In this document: positions 10,193 to 17,966 of the stretch, piece by piece | How the letters are laid out: every line of letters starts with the position of its first letter | How positions within the stretch are numbered: the stretch's first letter is position 1 | IMG/VR virus record: IMGVR_UViG_3300030104_001706 | Span: 1-33,818 of that record | DNA: 33,818 bases | Source of the DNA: a virus | Strand: one strand, 5' to 3' | Notes under the pieces: model-generated | What the model was told of the DNA's origin: nothing | Seen by the model: only the letters and a program-made list of their open reading frames with translations | The model's database searches: none | Translations under genes and position numbers: made by a program

Positions 10193-10975
10193 ATGGAAAC
10201 TAATAAATTTCATGCTTTGCAATTATTTACAGATACATTTACAGCAGAAACGGTACATTTAAGCAATGAACAAGTAGGTATATATATTAGATTATTATGT
10301 TTTGCTTGGACTAAAAATACAAAACCATTTTCAACAAAATCTGCTTACAGAATATGTCAATGTATAGATGGAAGTTGCTATGCTAAAGTTGAAGAAATAT
10401 TGGAAGAATTTTTTATACCAAATGAAGAACATAATCATTGGACTCATAAAAGATTAACAGCTGAACATGAATATTTAACAGCTAAATATCAAAGAAAATC
10501 ATATGCTGGTAAAAAAGGTGCTGATGCTAAATGGTCTGCCAATGGCAAAACAATGACACCTATACCTATACCTAAACCTATACCTAATAATAAATATAGC
10601 TCAATTTTTGATGAACTTTGGAAAGGTTTAATTATTAAACGAGGTTCCAAATGGAAAGCATACCAAACATTTACAAAAGTTTGTGATGATATGCCAAAAA
10701 AAGAAACAATTATTGATATATATAATAAACAAATGCAAGGTATTGAGGACAAATTTGTGCCACATTTTAGCACATGGTTAAGTCAAAAAAGGTGGGAAAT
10801 GGAAGAAATTGACCAAATAAAACAGGAATCGCCTGTTAATTTACGTCAAAAAATGGAAAAATTAGGGTTTGATTTTAGGCATAGTGAGGACAGATTTGAT
10901 TACTTCAAAAAAGATGGAAAAGAGTATAAAATAGATAGGTATGATAAAGACCATATAATACACAATGTTGAATGA
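10193..10975 (+). CDS. DUF1376 replication initiation protein
   Basis: A 260-residue protein. Residues about 7-115 fit DUF1376, a winged-helix-like domain of phage replication proteins ('HLSNEQVGIYIRLLCFAWTK', then 'AKVEEILEEFF', then 'SYAGKKGADAKWS'). A Pro/Ile linker at residues 122-131 (TPIPIPKPIP) leads to a C-terminal helical half with 'FDELW' and 'HFSTWLSQKRW', typical of initiators that recruit a helicase loader or helicase. No phage polymerase, helicase or primase is recognisable in the window, so it probably hands the origin to the host replisome. The linker DNA is a hexamer repeat that may itself be the origin. Confidence 0.8.
   Translation: METNKFHALQLFTDTFTAETVHLSNEQVGIYIRLLCFAWTKNTKPFSTKSAYRICQCIDGSCYAKVEEILEEFFIPNEEHNHWTHKRLTAEHEYLTAKYQRKSYAGKKGADAKWSANGKTMTPIPIPKPIPNNKYSSIFDELWKGLIIKRGSKWKAYQTFTKVCDDMPKKETIIDIYNKQMQGIEDKFVPHFSTWLSQKRWEMEEIDQIKQESPVNLRQKMEKLGFDFRHSEDRFDYFKKDGKEYKIDRYDKDHIIHNVE
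10559..10588 (+). repeat. Five tandem CCTAWW hexamers inside the initiator gene (candidate iterons)
   Basis: The units read CCTATA, CCTATA, CCTAAA, CCTATA, CCTAAT with no gaps, and encode the Pro/Ile linker. Lambdoid origins lie as iterons inside the initiator gene, so this could be the origin. A purely protein-level reason (a PI/PK linker) explains it too. Confidence 0.5.
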
Positions 10976-11106: not shown

Positions 11107-11387
11107 AAAGAAAAAAAGCACAATATAAATTTGCCATTATTAAGAAAAAGAAATATTATTTCTATAAAATTACATGGTTAGATATTTTAGGCGATGCAGG
11201 ACATTGTACTAGCTTTGATTTTTTAGGAATGAAACCTAGTGTAATGGTAACACATGCTTATTTGTTTCAAAAAGATAAAAAATGTATAAGAACATTTGGA
11301 ACATATGAAGAAAATGATGAATTATTTAGTGATAGAAATGTTTTTCCAAAAGGTGTAATAGTTAAAATGGAAAAAATACCTGTATGA
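11103..11387 (+). CDS. Conserved hypothetical phage protein
   Basis: A 94-residue protein. After a basic start it has 'FYKITWLDILGDAGHCTSFD', then 'THAYLFQKDKKCIRTFGTYE' and 'ELFSDRNVFPKGVI'. From memory this 'W.DI.GD.GH' plus 'SDRNVFP.G' pattern recurs in small proteins of marine phages, without a known role. It is coupled by 4-bp overlaps to both neighbours. Confidence 0.7.
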   Translation: MKRKKAQYKFAIIKKKKYYFYKITWLDILGDAGHCTSFDFLGMKPSVMVTHAYLFQKDKKCIRTFGTYEENDELFSDRNVFPKGVIVKMEKIPV

Positions 11388-11920
11388 AGATTGAAGAAAT
11401 AGATATTAATTTAATTAAACCATATAAAAACAATCCAAGAGAAATATCTGCTGATGCAGTAAAAAAAGTGCGTAATAGTATTTCAGAATTTGGTAATAAT
11501 CAACCAATAGTTATAGACCAAGATAATTATATTGTTGTGGGTCATACAAGATGGAAAGCATTAAAAGAATTACATAAAAAAACAGCATTTGTTATTAAAA
11601 AGGATTTTGAAAAGAATCAAGCAATAGCATATAGAATAATGGATAATCGGTCAGGACAAGAAACTAAATGGAATGAAGATTTATTAATATCTGAATTAAA
11701 TATACTGAAAGATGAAAGTTTTGATTTAGATTTAACAGGATTTGATAAATTAGAATTAGATAAATATTTATCTGATAAACAAGTATTGGAAGATAGTTCA
11801 GAAATAACTATACCAAATAAATGTGAAGTTATAATTGAATGTGAATCTGAAGAAAAACAACAAGAATTATATAATGAATTATCTGAAAGAGGATTAACTT
11901 GTCGAGTGTTAAATTTCTAA
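11384..11920 (+). CDS. ParB-like nuclease/DNA-binding domain protein
   Basis: A 178-residue protein. The ParB N-terminal domain covers residues about 4-90: 'IKPYKNNPRE' (11-20), 'IVIDQDNYIVVGHTRWKALK' (42-61) with the G-H-T-R-W catalytic/CTP-binding-type motif, then 'AIAYRIMDNR'. Phage ParB-like domains usually partner with DNA methylases or other base modification enzymes. Here no methylase follows; the next gene, overlapping by 22 bp, is an ABC-ATPase/GNAT fusion. The pair is probably one modification module (inference). Confidence 0.85.
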   Translation: MKIEEIDINLIKPYKNNPREISADAVKKVRNSISEFGNNQPIVIDQDNYIVVGHTRWKALKELHKKTAFVIKKDFEKNQAIAYRIMDNRSGQETKWNEDLLISELNILKDESFDLDLTGFDKLELDKYLSDKQVLEDSSEITIPNKCEVIIECESEEKQQELYNELSERGLTCRVLNF

Positions 11921-12972
11921 AAGAAACAGAATATAAGCCAACATTTAGAACAGAACAAATATGTGGCATATATGATTTAGTACCTGAAAAAAAACTTAAA
12001 AAGGAATTTGATTTTAATATTGATTTAAATTTTGATTGGCAAGTTGGTTTAATTGTAGGAACATCTGGTAGTGGTAAAACAAGCCTAGCTAAACAATTAT
12101 TTAAAGATAATTATATTAGGTCTTTTAAATGGGATAATAATTCAGCATTTATAAATGAATTTCCAAAAAATATATCCATAAAAGAAATTTCAAAATGTTT
12201 AGCAAGTGTTGGTTTTGCTAGTCCACCTTTGTGGTTATTACCTTATTCAGCATTATCAACAGGACAACAATTTAGAGTGGATATAGTAAGGGCATTATTA
12301 CAAAATAAAGATATGGTATGCTTTGATGAATTTACTTCTGTTGTGGATAGAGATGTAGCTAAAATTGGTAGTCATTGTGTTCAAAAATTTATTAGGAAAA
12401 CAAAAAAACAATTTGTAGCCGTTTCATGTCATTATGATATTGTTGATTGGTTGCAACCTGATTGGATATTTGATGTAAATACAAATAAATTAACTAGGGG
12501 GTCAGCCAAGCGACCAGAAATTGACTTCAAAATATATCCAACAAGCGTTAACTCATGGGGAATGTTTAGAAACTATCATTATTTGAATACTAATATACAC
12601 CGTGCATCAAAATGTTTTATTGGATATATATGGAATAAACCTGTTGCATTTGGGGCAGTTTTACAATTTCCACATCCACATATAAAAAAAGCTAAAAGAG
12701 AACATAGAATAGTTACTTTGCCAGATTATCAAGGCATAGGATTAGGTAATAGGATAAGTGAATTTTGTGGTAAATATTTTACTAAATTGGGTTATAAATA
12801 TTATTCAGTAACATCACAACCATCAATGATATATTCAAGAAATAGGAGTAAAAATTGGGTAATAAAAAGAAAATTATCTCATATTAAAGGCGACAATTCT
12901 AATTTAACAAAACATTTTAAAAAATCAGCAAGTAACCGAAGATTGACAGCTACCTTTTTATATATTAATTAA
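11899..12972 (+). CDS. ABC-type ATPase fused to a Mom-like GNAT domain
   Basis: A 357-residue two-domain protein. The N-terminal ATPase has Walker A G54-TSGSGKT61, an ABC signature 'LSTGQ' (119-123), Walker B 'VCFDE' (140-144) and an H-loop His178. The C-terminal GNAT-like domain (about 205-357) begins with 'WGMFRNYHYLN', reminiscent of the HHYSG of phage Mu Mom, and has an acyl-CoA loop region at R270...'YQGIGLG' (277-283). Mom makes a carbamoylmethyl-type adenine modification that blocks restriction. I infer a DNA modification enzyme; an ordinary acetyltransferase is the alternative. The start is TTG, supported by GAGG 6 bases upstream. Confidence 0.72.
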   Translation: MSSVKFLKETEYKPTFRTEQICGIYDLVPEKKLKKEFDFNIDLNFDWQVGLIVGTSGSGKTSLAKQLFKDNYIRSFKWDNNSAFINEFPKNISIKEISKCLASVGFASPPLWLLPYSALSTGQQFRVDIVRALLQNKDMVCFDEFTSVVDRDVAKIGSHCVQKFIRKTKKQFVAVSCHYDIVDWLQPDWIFDVNTNKLTRGSAKRPEIDFKIYPTSVNSWGMFRNYHYLNTNIHRASKCFIGYIWNKPVAFGAVLQFPHPHIKKAKREHRIVTLPDYQGIGLGNRISEFCGKYFTKLGYKYYSVTSQPSMIYSRNRSKNWVIKRKLSHIKGDNSNLTKHFKKSASNRRLTATFLYIN

Positions 12973-12987
12973 CACAAAAAGGACATA

Positions 12988-13329
12988 ATGGCACGACCAC
13001 TTAAAAAAGTAGATAGCGAAGCAATAAAGAAATTAGCACAATTACATTGCACTTATGAAGAAATTGCAGAATTTTGTGAGGTTTCAACAAAGACATTACA
13101 AAGGAATTATGTCCACCTAATAAAAAAGGGGCGTGAGATGGGCAGAATTAGTTTAAGACGTGCTCAATTTGAGAAAGCATTAGGTGGTAATGTAGCTATG
13201 CAAATATGGTTAGGAAAGCAACATTTAGACCAAAAAGATAAAATTGAACAAACTAATTTTAATGAACCATTACCATTAATAATTGATGCAAAAGCAGAAG
13301 AAATAAAAGATGGCAAAAAGAAAAGGTAA
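12988..13329 (+). CDS. terS: Terminase small subunit
   Basis: A 113-residue protein. An N-terminal helix-turn-helix ('CTYEEIAEFCEVSTKTLQRN', residues about 20-39) is followed by 'GRISLRRAQFEKALGGNVAM' and 'QIWLGKQHLDQKD', the typical small-terminase core that recognises the packaging site and forms a ring. Large terminase is 2 kb downstream, separated by short genes. The last 20 bases overlap the next gene. Confidence 0.88.
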   Translation: MARPLKKVDSEAIKKLAQLHCTYEEIAEFCEVSTKTLQRNYVHLIKKGREMGRISLRRAQFEKALGGNVAMQIWLGKQHLDQKDKIEQTNFNEPLPLIIDAKAEEIKDGKKKR

Positions 13330-15126: not shown

Positions 15127-15348
15127 ATGAAATGGATTTTACTATACCAAGTATGCTCATTAGTTAATAATTTTTGTTATCCACCATTAACAGATAGAGA
15201 ATTATTAAGTTATTCAGAATGTGTAGCCAAAGGTGCAGAAAAAACTATTACATTAGTACAAAAAGCACCTAAAGAATTTGACGAACAAAAATATATAGTT
15301 AAATATTGGTGCTTAAGTGAAAATAACATTAACAAAACCCCAACATAA
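15127..15348 (+). CDS. Small cysteine-containing protein before the large terminase
   Basis: A 73-residue protein. A short hydrophobic start (MKWILLYQVCSLVNNFCYPP) is followed by 'YSECVAKGAEKT' and 'YIVKYWCLSE', giving four Cys. From memory, marine phages often carry short proteins with this arrangement. Export through the hydrophobic start is possible. Its last 32 bases overlap the large terminase gene. Confidence 0.6.
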   Translation: MKWILLYQVCSLVNNFCYPPLTDRELLSYSECVAKGAEKTITLVQKAPKEFDEQKYIVKYWCLSENNINKTPT

Positions 15349-16552
15349 AGTTTCAAAGAGTAATAAAAGATTTAGGGTATTAGTATCAGGCAGAAGATTT
15401 GGTAAAACCTATTTATGTATTACTGAAATGATGAAATATGCAACCCAAGTTCGAAAAAATATATGGTATGTTGCACCAACATTTAAAATGGCTAGAGAAA
15501 TTGTATGGTCTAAATTAAAACAAATGTTAGCAAGTTTTAATTGGATTGAATCTATTAATGAAACTAATTTATCAATTAGGATTAAAAGAACAGGAAGTAT
15601 TATATCCTTAAAAGGTTGTGAAAATTATGATGCTCTGCGTGGAGTAGGTATTGATTTTTTAATATTAGATGAGTTTGCTGATATTGATGAAAAGGCTTGG
15701 ACAGAAGTATTAAGGGCATCTATTGCTGACACAATGGGAGATGTTTTAATGTGTGGTTCTCCAAAAGGCTTTGGTAATTGGTCATACCGTATGTATGAAA
15801 AAGGAAAAAGGGATAATGAATGGGATAGTTTTCAATTTACTACATTACAAGGTGGAATGGTATCATCAAATGAAATAGAACAAGCAAAACAAGATATTGA
15901 TATAAGAACATTTAGACAAGAATTTGAGGGTAGTTTTGAAAATTATGCTGGTGCTGTTTATTATAATTTTCATGCTGTTGATAATGTTAAATCAAAAAAT
16001 ATAGATTGGTCTAAACCTTTACATATAGGATTGGATTTTAACGTTGACCCAATGAGTGCTTGTGTGGCTCAATTAGAAAAAGATACAATTCATTTTGTTG
16101 ATGAAATAGTTATTTATTCAAGTAATACAGATGAAATGGTTGAGGAAATACGAAACAGATATGGAACAAAACAAAAAATATTTGTTTATCCTGACCCAGC
16201 TTGTAGGCAAAGAAAAACCTCAGCTGGTGGTAAAACTGATTTAACAATATTACAAAATGCAGGTTTCAATGTGAAATGTAAATTAAAACATAGTCCAATA
16301 AGAGATAGAATCAATGCAGTAAATTCAAGATTAAAGTCGGCAGATGGAAAGCGTTATATTTTTATCTCGCCATCTTGCAAAATTATGATAAAAGGTTTAC
16401 AAAGACAAATATACAAGGAAAATACAAATATTCCTGATAAAGAAGAAGGCTACGACCATATGAATGACAGCATTGGATATTTAATTGAAATTGTAAAACC
16501 ACTGATAGCACAAAATATACCATATAAACCAATAAGATGGACACATAGATAA
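15317..16552 (+). CDS. terL: Terminase large subunit
   Basis: A 411-residue packaging motor. The ATPase has Walker A 'SGRRFGKT' (24-31) and Walker B 'LILDE' (115-119), with the coupling motif 'CGSPKG' (146-151). The RNase H-like nuclease domain has D240 in 'LHIGLDFNVDP', D293 in 'VYPDP' and D384 in 'DHMNDSIGYL'. Length is typical. The start is GTG at 15317, overlapping the previous gene by 32 bp. It acts with the small subunit at 12988 and the portal that follows 1 bp later. Confidence 0.95.
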   Translation: MKITLTKPQHKVSKSNKRFRVLVSGRRFGKTYLCITEMMKYATQVRKNIWYVAPTFKMAREIVWSKLKQMLASFNWIESINETNLSIRIKRTGSIISLKGCENYDALRGVGIDFLILDEFADIDEKAWTEVLRASIADTMGDVLMCGSPKGFGNWSYRMYEKGKRDNEWDSFQFTTLQGGMVSSNEIEQAKQDIDIRTFRQEFEGSFENYAGAVYYNFHAVDNVKSKNIDWSKPLHIGLDFNVDPMSACVAQLEKDTIHFVDEIVIYSSNTDEMVEEIRNRYGTKQKIFVYPDPACRQRKTSAGGKTDLTILQNAGFNVKCKLKHSPIRDRINAVNSRLKSADGKRYIFISPSCKIMIKGLQRQIYKENTNIPDKEEGYDHMNDSIGYLIEIVKPLIAQNIPYKPIRWTHR

Positions 16553-16553
16553 A

Positions 16554-17966
16554 ATGTACGCAAGAGATGAAGCATTAGATACGCATAAAGATTATAAAGA
16601 ATCTGTTAGCTTATGGGAATATTATATTCGTTCATATAATGGTGGTTACGATTATATGGTTGGTCAATATTTAAATAGATATAATTTAGAATTGGATAAT
16701 GAATTTAATCAAAGATTGGCTAATACACCTTGCGATAATCATTGTAAAAATATAATACAAATATATTCATCTTTTTTATTCAGAGTAAAACCATCAAGAA
16801 ATTTTGGTTTAATGGCAGAAGAACCTAGTTTAGAATCATTCTTAAAAGATGCTGACCTTGATGGAAATAGCTTTAATGCAGTAATAAAACAAGCACAAAA
16901 TTATGCATCTATTTATGGACATAGTTTTTTAATTTTAGATAAACCAAAGGTAACAACAAATACACAAGCAGAAGAAATTGAACAAGATATAAGACCATAT
17001 ATTTCAATTATTACTCCAGAAAATGTTTTGGATTGGAATTTTAAAAGAGAAGTAAATGGTAAATATACTTTGGATTATTTAAAAATTAGAGAAGAGGTTG
17101 ATAAGAATGGTGGAACATATATGCGTGTTTGGTATTTAGACAGAGTAGATACCTTATATATGAAAGATGATAGAACTGAACCAACCGTAATAGATACTGC
17201 CGATAATCTGATTGGCAAAATACCAGCAGTTATTTTATACAATGCAAAGTCACATAAACGAGGCATTGGTCAGTCAGACCTTCAAGATATAGCTGATTTG
17301 CAAAAAAGTATTTATAATGAATTTTCAGAAATAGAACAATTAATTAGATTAACTAACCACCCATCATTAGTAAAAACTCCAAGTGTAAATGCAAGTGCTG
17401 GTGCTGGTGCAGTTATAGAAATGCCTGATGAAATGGAACCAAATTTAAAACCATATTTATTACAACCATCTGGACAAAATTTAGCACAATTAATGGATTC
17501 AATTAATCATAAAGTTGAAGCAATAAATAGATTGGCACATACAGGAGCCATAAGAACAACAAGAAATCAAATTAATTCAGGAATAGCATTACAAACTGAA
17601 TTTGAATTATTAAATGCAAGATTATCAGAAAAAGCAGATAATTTACAAATAGCAGAAGAACAATTATTTAAATTATATAGTTTATTTCAAAATACAGAAT
17701 TTGATGGAGAAATTAATTATCCTGATACATTTAACATTAGAGATTATGCATCTGATTTAGCTTTTTATCAACAAGCAAAAGCTATTAATATTGAATCTCC
17801 AACATTGCAAAAAGAAATTGATAAAGAAATTGCTAGGTCAGTTGTTGATGATGATGAAAAATTAAATGTTATATTTGATGAAATTGAGCAACAAAAAGAA
17901 TTAGGTCAATTTACACAAGACGAAGTACAACAACCTGATGAGGAAGTGGAAGAAGAAGAAATTTAA
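16554..17966 (+). CDS. Portal protein
   Basis: A 470-residue protein between the large terminase and the minor head protein. The N-terminal part has 'WEYYIRSYNGGYDYM' and 'CDNHCKNIIQIYSSFLFR'. The middle has 'IGQSDLQDIADLQKSIYNEF' and the helical crown/barrel segments. The C-terminus is acidic ('DEEVEEEEI'). Size and position match SPP1/HK97-type portals, the dodecameric ring through which DNA enters. The family call rests on position plus general pattern. Confidence 0.88.
   Translation: MYARDEALDTHKDYKESVSLWEYYIRSYNGGYDYMVGQYLNRYNLELDNEFNQRLANTPCDNHCKNIIQIYSSFLFRVKPSRNFGLMAEEPSLESFLKDADLDGNSFNAVIKQAQNYASIYGHSFLILDKPKVTTNTQAEEIEQDIRPYISIITPENVLDWNFKREVNGKYTLDYLKIREEVDKNGGTYMRVWYLDRVDTLYMKDDRTEPTVIDTADNLIGKIPAVILYNAKSHKRGIGQSDLQDIADLQKSIYNEFSEIEQLIRLTNHPSLVKTPSVNASAGAGAVIEMPDEMEPNLKPYLLQPSGQNLAQLMDSINHKVEAINRLAHTGAIRTTRNQINSGIALQTEFELLNARLSEKADNLQIAEEQLFKLYSLFQNTEFDGEINYPDTFNIRDYASDLAFYQQAKAINIESPTLQKEIDKEIARSVVDDDEKLNVIFDEIEQQKELGQFTQDEVQQPDEEVEEEEI

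Follow-up and report, generated by a model that had tools for sequence, protein, structure and literature searches.

The gene pair of interest, a parB-family gene overlapping a gene that fuses an ABC-type ATPase to a GNAT domain (hereafter ABC-GNAT), lies in a viral DNA sequence of 33,818 nucleotides (the window, meaning the whole stretch of DNA that was analysed). The pair is likely to be a phage DNA-base modification module, in which the fusion would be a DNA-base acyltransferase that depends on ATP and is partnered by ParB through an effector-specific docking tail. The strongest support for a role in DNA modification is that, in related phages, the place of ABC-GNAT behind parB is taken by Mom, by a TET/JBP oxygenase or by a TAGT glycosyltransferase. 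These swaps support the candidate DNA-modification module proposed in a first-pass annotation of the window; the chemistry is predicted. From the domains, motifs, gene pairing, cassette exchange and tail specificity observed, we infer a target base, an acyl group, a role for ATP and a docking function.

Table 1. Features of the ParB/ABC-GNAT cassette and its flanks (window coordinates).
Feature	Position	Strand	Basis or remark
Primosomal/replication-initiation-like gene	10193..10975	+	conserved upstream flank of the slot
ParB-family gene P0001, 178 aa	11384..11920	+	Pfam ParB_N E=5e-10, phrog_620 E=2e-46
ParB_N domain, aa 2-88	11387..11647	+	profile match; no HTH domain matched
GHTRW motif of ParB, aa 53-57	11540-11554	+	inside ParB_N domain
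ParB C-terminal putative docking tail, aa 145-178	11816..11917	+	tail HMM; specific to ABC-GNAT partner
Shine-Dalgarno-like AGGA, 5 nt before TTG start	11890..11893	+	sequence reading
ABC-ATPase/GNAT fusion gene P0002, 357 aa, TTG start	11899..12972	+	phrog_11143 E=4.3e-98
ABC-type ATPase domain, aa 1-200	11899..12498	+	conserved motifs, AlphaFold2 model, structural alignment
Walker A	12058-12081	+	ABC domain
Signature	12253-12267	+	ABC domain
Walker B	12313-12330	+	ABC domain
H-loop His178	12430-12432	+	ABC domain
GNAT domain, aa 205-357	12511..12969	+	motifs, profiles, model, structural matches
GNAT invariant His227-Tyr228	12577-12582	+	alignment of 74 homologues
Acyl-CoA loop PDYQGIGLG of GNAT domain	12721-12747	+	alignment of 74 homologues
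Terminase small-subunit-like gene	12988..13329	+	conserved slot flank; 84-89% identical in most relatives
Terminase large subunit (TerL)	15317..16552	+	69-79% identical to four Pelagibacter phages

Overlapping genes encode a ParB-family protein and an ABC-GNAT fusion

The virus record (33.8 kb) encodes a TerL protein 69-79% identical to those of four Pelagibacter phages and, judged by such sequence relationships, comes from a marine virus of SAR11-like bacteria in the pelagiphage lineage. The cassette has replication genes on one side and the gene for the small terminase subunit on the other, and its two open reading frames overlap by 22 nt. Both frames, and the ParB (GHTRW) and ABC-ATPase/GNAT domains that the first-pass annotation had assigned to them, were confirmed. 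Its statement that a methylase is lacking was borne out for PF01555 by a profile search of the record. PADLOC, applied to the module, reported nothing beyond weak ABC matches and the ParB component of a type II methyltransferase.

The phrog_11143 profile spans residues 14-356 of P0002 and thus both domains. The ABC part is matched by Pfam ABC_tran (E=7e-9), and the ATPase is complete, as had been proposed: Walker A, the LSTGQ signature, the DE of Walker B and the H-loop are invariant or nearly so across 74 diverse homologues (G54, S56, G57, G59 and K60; L119, S120 and G122; D143 and E144; D150 and R151; H178). GNAT profiles fall below threshold on P0002 alone (Acetyltransf_7, E=5e-4), and Acetyltransf_1 matches 67 of the 74 family members. 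The Q-G-x-G-x-G acyl-CoA loop is likewise (nearly) invariant, as are W220, F223, H227, Y228, R270, P275, D276, Q278 and G279, with G281 and G283 nearly so; together with the modelled fold, these features bear out the GNAT-like domain, whose loop fits the superfamily pattern Q/R-x-x-G-x-G/A. No ABC transporter transmembrane domain is present (in the model, residues 1-357 are entirely nucleotide-binding domain plus GNAT), and no permease family occurs among the commonest neighbours of ABC-GNAT loci.

AlphaFold2 models of the whole protein (pLDDT 92.8, pTM 0.87) and of the GNAT domain alone (pLDDT 89.4, pTM 0.82) were compared with solved structures. The ABC domain aligns with ABC nucleotide-binding domains (VIA-align; Z 14.6-16.1 over 172-187 residues, rmsd 2.7-3.4), and the GNAT domain with 1y9k, RimI, Ard1/Naa10, Naa50 and others (Z 12.2-13.9 over 126-139 residues, rmsd 2.7-4.2); among the matches listed, the solved GNAT structures closest in fold are acetyltransferases of proteins or small molecules. 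The first-pass annotation had regarded a C-terminal domain like that of an ordinary acetyltransferase as grounds against its proposal. At the level of the fold this likeness was found; fold likeness does not give the substrate, however, and the ordinary GNAT fold predicted here does not decide it.

Pairing with parB extends well beyond the window. Loci were collected with pattern scans, which are biased towards close relatives, and each of the two sets consists of the closest 80 relatives per collection. All usable viral loci (77 of 77) have parB directly before ABC-GNAT, and in 59 of them the overlap is likewise exactly 22 nt; in bacterial genome contigs, the pair occurs in 60 of 74 loci. Among more diverse named phages, 12 of 22 carry an adjacent parB. 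The pairing is not due to chance. A recognisable ParB is absent from some members, namely those of T4-like phages, Enterococcus phage 9184, Thomasclavelia and Nonlabens, and ParB is therefore not required everywhere.

The cassette occupies an exchange slot behind ParB

A search with the ParB N-terminus retrieved 37 loci of the window's pelagiphage lineage. The effector is ABC-GNAT in six of these (all near-copies of the window), true Mom in 24 (e.g., L389: PF25680, 1e-48; phrog_1384, 1.5e-51), a TET/JBP oxygenase in six and a TAGT glycosyltransferase in one. TET/JBP genes fill the slot in phage HTVC112P and in L408-L413 (PF12851, E=1e-29), and the TAGT gene lies behind a doubled ParB (L414; PF20691, E=9e-49). 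Across these slot variants the flanks are conserved: identity is 48-66% for the primosomal gene, 72-89% for TerL and 84-89% for the small terminase subunit (75% in a single truncated match). The orthologous ParB proteins are 66-77% identical to that of the window over aa 1-122, and identity falls to 12-32% in the tail.

The nearest isolated phage is HTVC112P, whose orthologous ParB is 52% identical overall. The stop codon of its parB overlaps the TET/JBP gene, which is followed by an FkbM methyltransferase gene and then by the same small terminase gene. The TET/JBP oxygenase itself (gp18; L377, 2142-3050; PF12851, 1e-29) is annotated as a DnaJ/SNF2 repair protein. A longer modification cassette is found in L412 (1921-5066), where genes for TET/JBP, a glutamine amidotransferase and a GNAT form one operon behind the orthologous parB.

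A second, independent natural swap distinguishes two sister phages of Nonlabens. P12024S carries ABC-GNAT at 16313-17452; in the same slot, P12024L carries a TET/JBP gene (16409-17248) and a methyltransferase gene, and the flanks of the slot are 98.4% and 97.1% identical between the two. Natural replacement by established DNA-modifying families constitutes independent evidence for the predicted role of ABC-GNAT, and swaps that occur even in nearly identical phages provide ready test pairs, such as P12024S and P12024L. From such exchange it follows that the effectors benefit the phage equivalently, not that they act on one and the same substrate.

ParB combines a conserved N-terminal domain with an effector-specific tail

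ParB proteins are common beside other base-modifying enzymes (PMC12783734). P0001 matches the N-terminal part of phrog_498 (phage ParB-methyltransferase fusions; 7e-37), which supports the DNA-modification reading. It resembles the ParB/Srx partners of phage methyltransferases (phrog_498, phrog_620) in its N-terminal ParB_N domain and GHxR motif, and differs from them in being a stand-alone gene product whose tail is dedicated to ABC-GNAT. The alignment to Noc/ParB covers only aa 3-98, the remainder being linker and tail. The NTP-binding-type ParB_N domain of partition proteins is thus present by profile match; their central HTH DNA-binding domain is absent from P0001 according to both domain matching and the Noc/ParB alignment. 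The earlier suggestion that ParB may choose sites is unsupported, because P0001 has no HTH domain; in addition, loci of the formyltransferase type (see below) mostly retain the tail alone.

Different effector genes go with different ParB tails. A profile of the last 48 ParB residues, built from named phages alone, matches 125 of 160 ABC-GNAT loci and none of 19 other loci (11 Mom, seven TET/JBP and one TAGT). ParB proteins paired with Mom, in Microbacterium phage Antuna and in pelagiphages, have in common a different ending of the CPxC type. In Antuna (L224, 1969-3228), parB overlaps the mom homologue, and a tRNA-Gly gene lies directly behind the latter. Pseudomonas phage Komp_PAO1_1, Porphyromonas phage008a and gut phages lack the ParB domain and encode, ahead of ABC-GNAT, a mini-protein equivalent to the tail (42 aa in Komp_PAO1_1, 50 aa in phage008a). 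The simplest reading of the tail swap is that the tail docks its effector, and an exchangeable tail for docking can be put forward as a concrete hypothesis.

Formyltransferase-associated and split-frame subtypes

A formyltransferase family (Formyl_trans_N, 3e-17; phrog_9240), absent from the window, is encoded directly behind ABC-GNAT in other phages. ABC-GNAT lies upstream on the same strand in 78 of the 80 closest viral loci of this formyltransferase, the other two of which start near a contig edge. Among the 78, the tail alone is present in 55, a whole ParB in 13 and neither in 10. Examples include L016 (1805-2452), L031 (1823-2473), L026 (4074-4691), L024 (4125-4598) and L297-L376; the gene is annotated as a tRNA-methyltransferase in Gordonia phages and as a phosphoribosylglycinamide formyltransferase elsewhere. 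This subtype hints at base chemistry in two steps, of a kind not yet described.

The window encodes its fusion in one frame, whereas ABC and GNAT are encoded in different frames in phages of Firmicutes and in rumen-type contigs (L010, L011, L012, L020, L023, L027, L231-L248, L253, L255, L270 and L292). In the 34 split loci, the frame changes where the two domains meet, nearly always by -1, and the GNAT frame mostly contains no ATG, GTG or TTG start before its conserved part. Several split loci carry A AAA AAG, A AAT TTT or homopolymer runs. We consider these loci candidates for programmed -1 frameshifting, which would yield both ABC alone and ABC-GNAT. Because metagenome contigs may contain frame errors in A-tracts, this proposal is based chiefly on phages that were isolated or come from host genomes (P335, Javan141, MismyG, Oenococcus, 9184 and TR-TP2). 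The 'DNA modification methylase' annotated in streptococcal and Oenococcus phages proved to be ParB only; at 172-218 aa, it has no room for a methylase domain.

Proposed mechanism and alternative explanations

As a DNA-base acyltransferase, the GNAT domain would move an acyl group from acyl-CoA onto a base of the phage DNA, at the exocyclic amine of A, C or G. The transfer would probably take place late, close to packaging, and may shield the DNA from host nucleases. Two observations support acyl transfer: (i) the canonical acyl-CoA loop is kept, and (ii) an amine-acylating enzyme, the formyltransferase, accompanies ABC-GNAT in nearly all of its own loci. The ABC domain would dimerise on ATP as other ABC domains do, and may clamp or distort DNA so as to expose the base. 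The N-terminal NTP-binding-type domain of ParB would be the part common to many phage modification enzymes, with the C-terminal tail docking a particular effector, such that ParB both docks and licenses the enzyme. A tentative extension, which we hold to be possible and somewhat short of even odds, is that ParB is a common docking platform whose exchangeable tail recruits ABC-GNAT, Mom, TET/JBP or TAGT, and that ABC-GNAT generates an N-acylated base that, in phages with the formyltransferase, is built further (e.g., by formylation of an amine left by the first transfer).

The fusion had initially been called 'Mom-like', and a true Mom would carry out N6-methylcarbamoylation of adenine. ABC-GNAT resembles phage Mu Mom (PF25680, 8bv8) in that both are GNAT-related phage proteins, Mom being a DNA-modifying enzyme; moreover, Mom is ParB-paired in Antuna and pelagiphages, fills the same slot in sister phages, and shares in register a His-Tyr pair that is invariant in both families. 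However, P0002 does not match PF25680 or phrog_1384 at E<=1, and hhalign comparison of the GNAT part with two Mom alignments was not significant (P=0.085-0.11). The aligned Moms lack the canonical Q-G-x-G-x-G loop, Mom has no ABC domain, and its ParB tail is of the CPxC type. Aeromonas phage PX29 (T4-like) encodes both ABC-GNAT (L022) and a Mom homologue (L226) in different places. Mom 8bv8 is not among the best 50 matches listed in a GNAT-only structure search, a listing that excludes nothing. By profile tests, ABC-GNAT thus falls outside the Mom family, and we judge Mom chemistry very unlikely. TmcA, the tRNA-Met cytidine acetyltransferase, combines an ATPase with a GNAT, and TmcA/NAT10 (tRNA N4-acetylcytidine synthase, 2zpa) may be regarded, by analogy only, as the closest functional counterpart, since it acylates a nucleobase amine; it differs in its RNA target, its helicase-type rather than ABC ATPase and its weak structural score (Foldseek rank 35, E=3.5e-7, TM just 0.28). 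An RNA-directed system that acylates aminoacyl-tRNA or, as TmcA does, tRNA bases, and whose formyltransferase modifies the same tRNA, would also fit the best NCBIfam match of the ABC part, which is ABC-F. Yet the ABC matches lack specificity, the enzymes that replace the fusion in the slot act on DNA, and tRNA genes, considered as a source of an aminoacyl donor, are not associated with or enriched near the module in ~110 loci; such a system is quite unlikely.

The likeness of the GNAT model to RimI, Ard1/Naa10 and Naa50 would also suit a protein acetyltransferase serving host takeover (as phiKMV Rac acetylates RNA polymerase), in which the ABC domain would be an energy or assembly module, and PMC7824862 describes this role as often predicted for the GNATs of jumbo phages. 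It accounts neither for one-slot exchange with Mom, TET/JBP and TAGT nor for the ParB pairing in all usable viral loci, and we regard it as unlikely. In at least 85 loci the TerL gene follows the module at a distance of a few genes, as might be expected of a packaging or partition accessory in which ParB and ABC, next to the terminase, would recognise pac sites or condense DNA; in other phages, however, the cassette is far from the terminase, and it is replaced by modification enzymes, making this explanation most improbable.

Relation to earlier predictions

The prediction of DNA modification by GNAT/ABC-ATPase proteins reportedly originates with Iyer et al. 2013 (NAR 41:7635). Neither the ABC-GNAT family nor the idea of DNA acylation is new, given that PMC7824862 reports the prediction that a GNAT joined to an ABC ATPase introduces an as yet uncharacterised acyl modification into a DNA base; the phage it names is Tenacibaculum phage pT24, whose protein is a homologue of P0002 (36% identical). 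This Iyer-Aravind family (phrog_11143) has the same domain pair and the same predicted role, and the published prediction counts in favour of the reading given here; the published account consulted does not include docking by the ParB tail, cassette exchange, the formyltransferase or frameshifted versions. In the literature searched (the 2013 source paper excepted), we found no description of the exchange slot, tail switch, formyltransferase partner or frameshifted versions; nor did the search return an experiment on any member of the ABC-GNAT family, whose role in DNA modification has been predicted since 2013.

Further observations concern individual genes. ASCH-domain-like amidohydrolase genes neighbour ABC-GNAT in 30 of 249 loci (e.g., L010, 4117-4485; L011, 4129-4506; L027, 4133-4513; L112, L123, L128 and L129), as compared with 0 of 80 and 0 of 32 loci in the two other sets used for comparison. 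As the ASCH enzyme YqfB hydrolyses N4-acylcytosines (PMC6972931), these neighbours are suggestive of N4-acylcytosine, a hint drawn from comparison with those two sets only. In the tail/late region of the window, the gene at 26805-27218 matches HlyC, the family of RTX toxin-activating lysine acyltransferases (PF02794, 2e-19). Finally, the ABC-GNAT gene of Tenacibaculum phage pT24, the literature's named example, contains an in-frame stop codon (L021, 3717).
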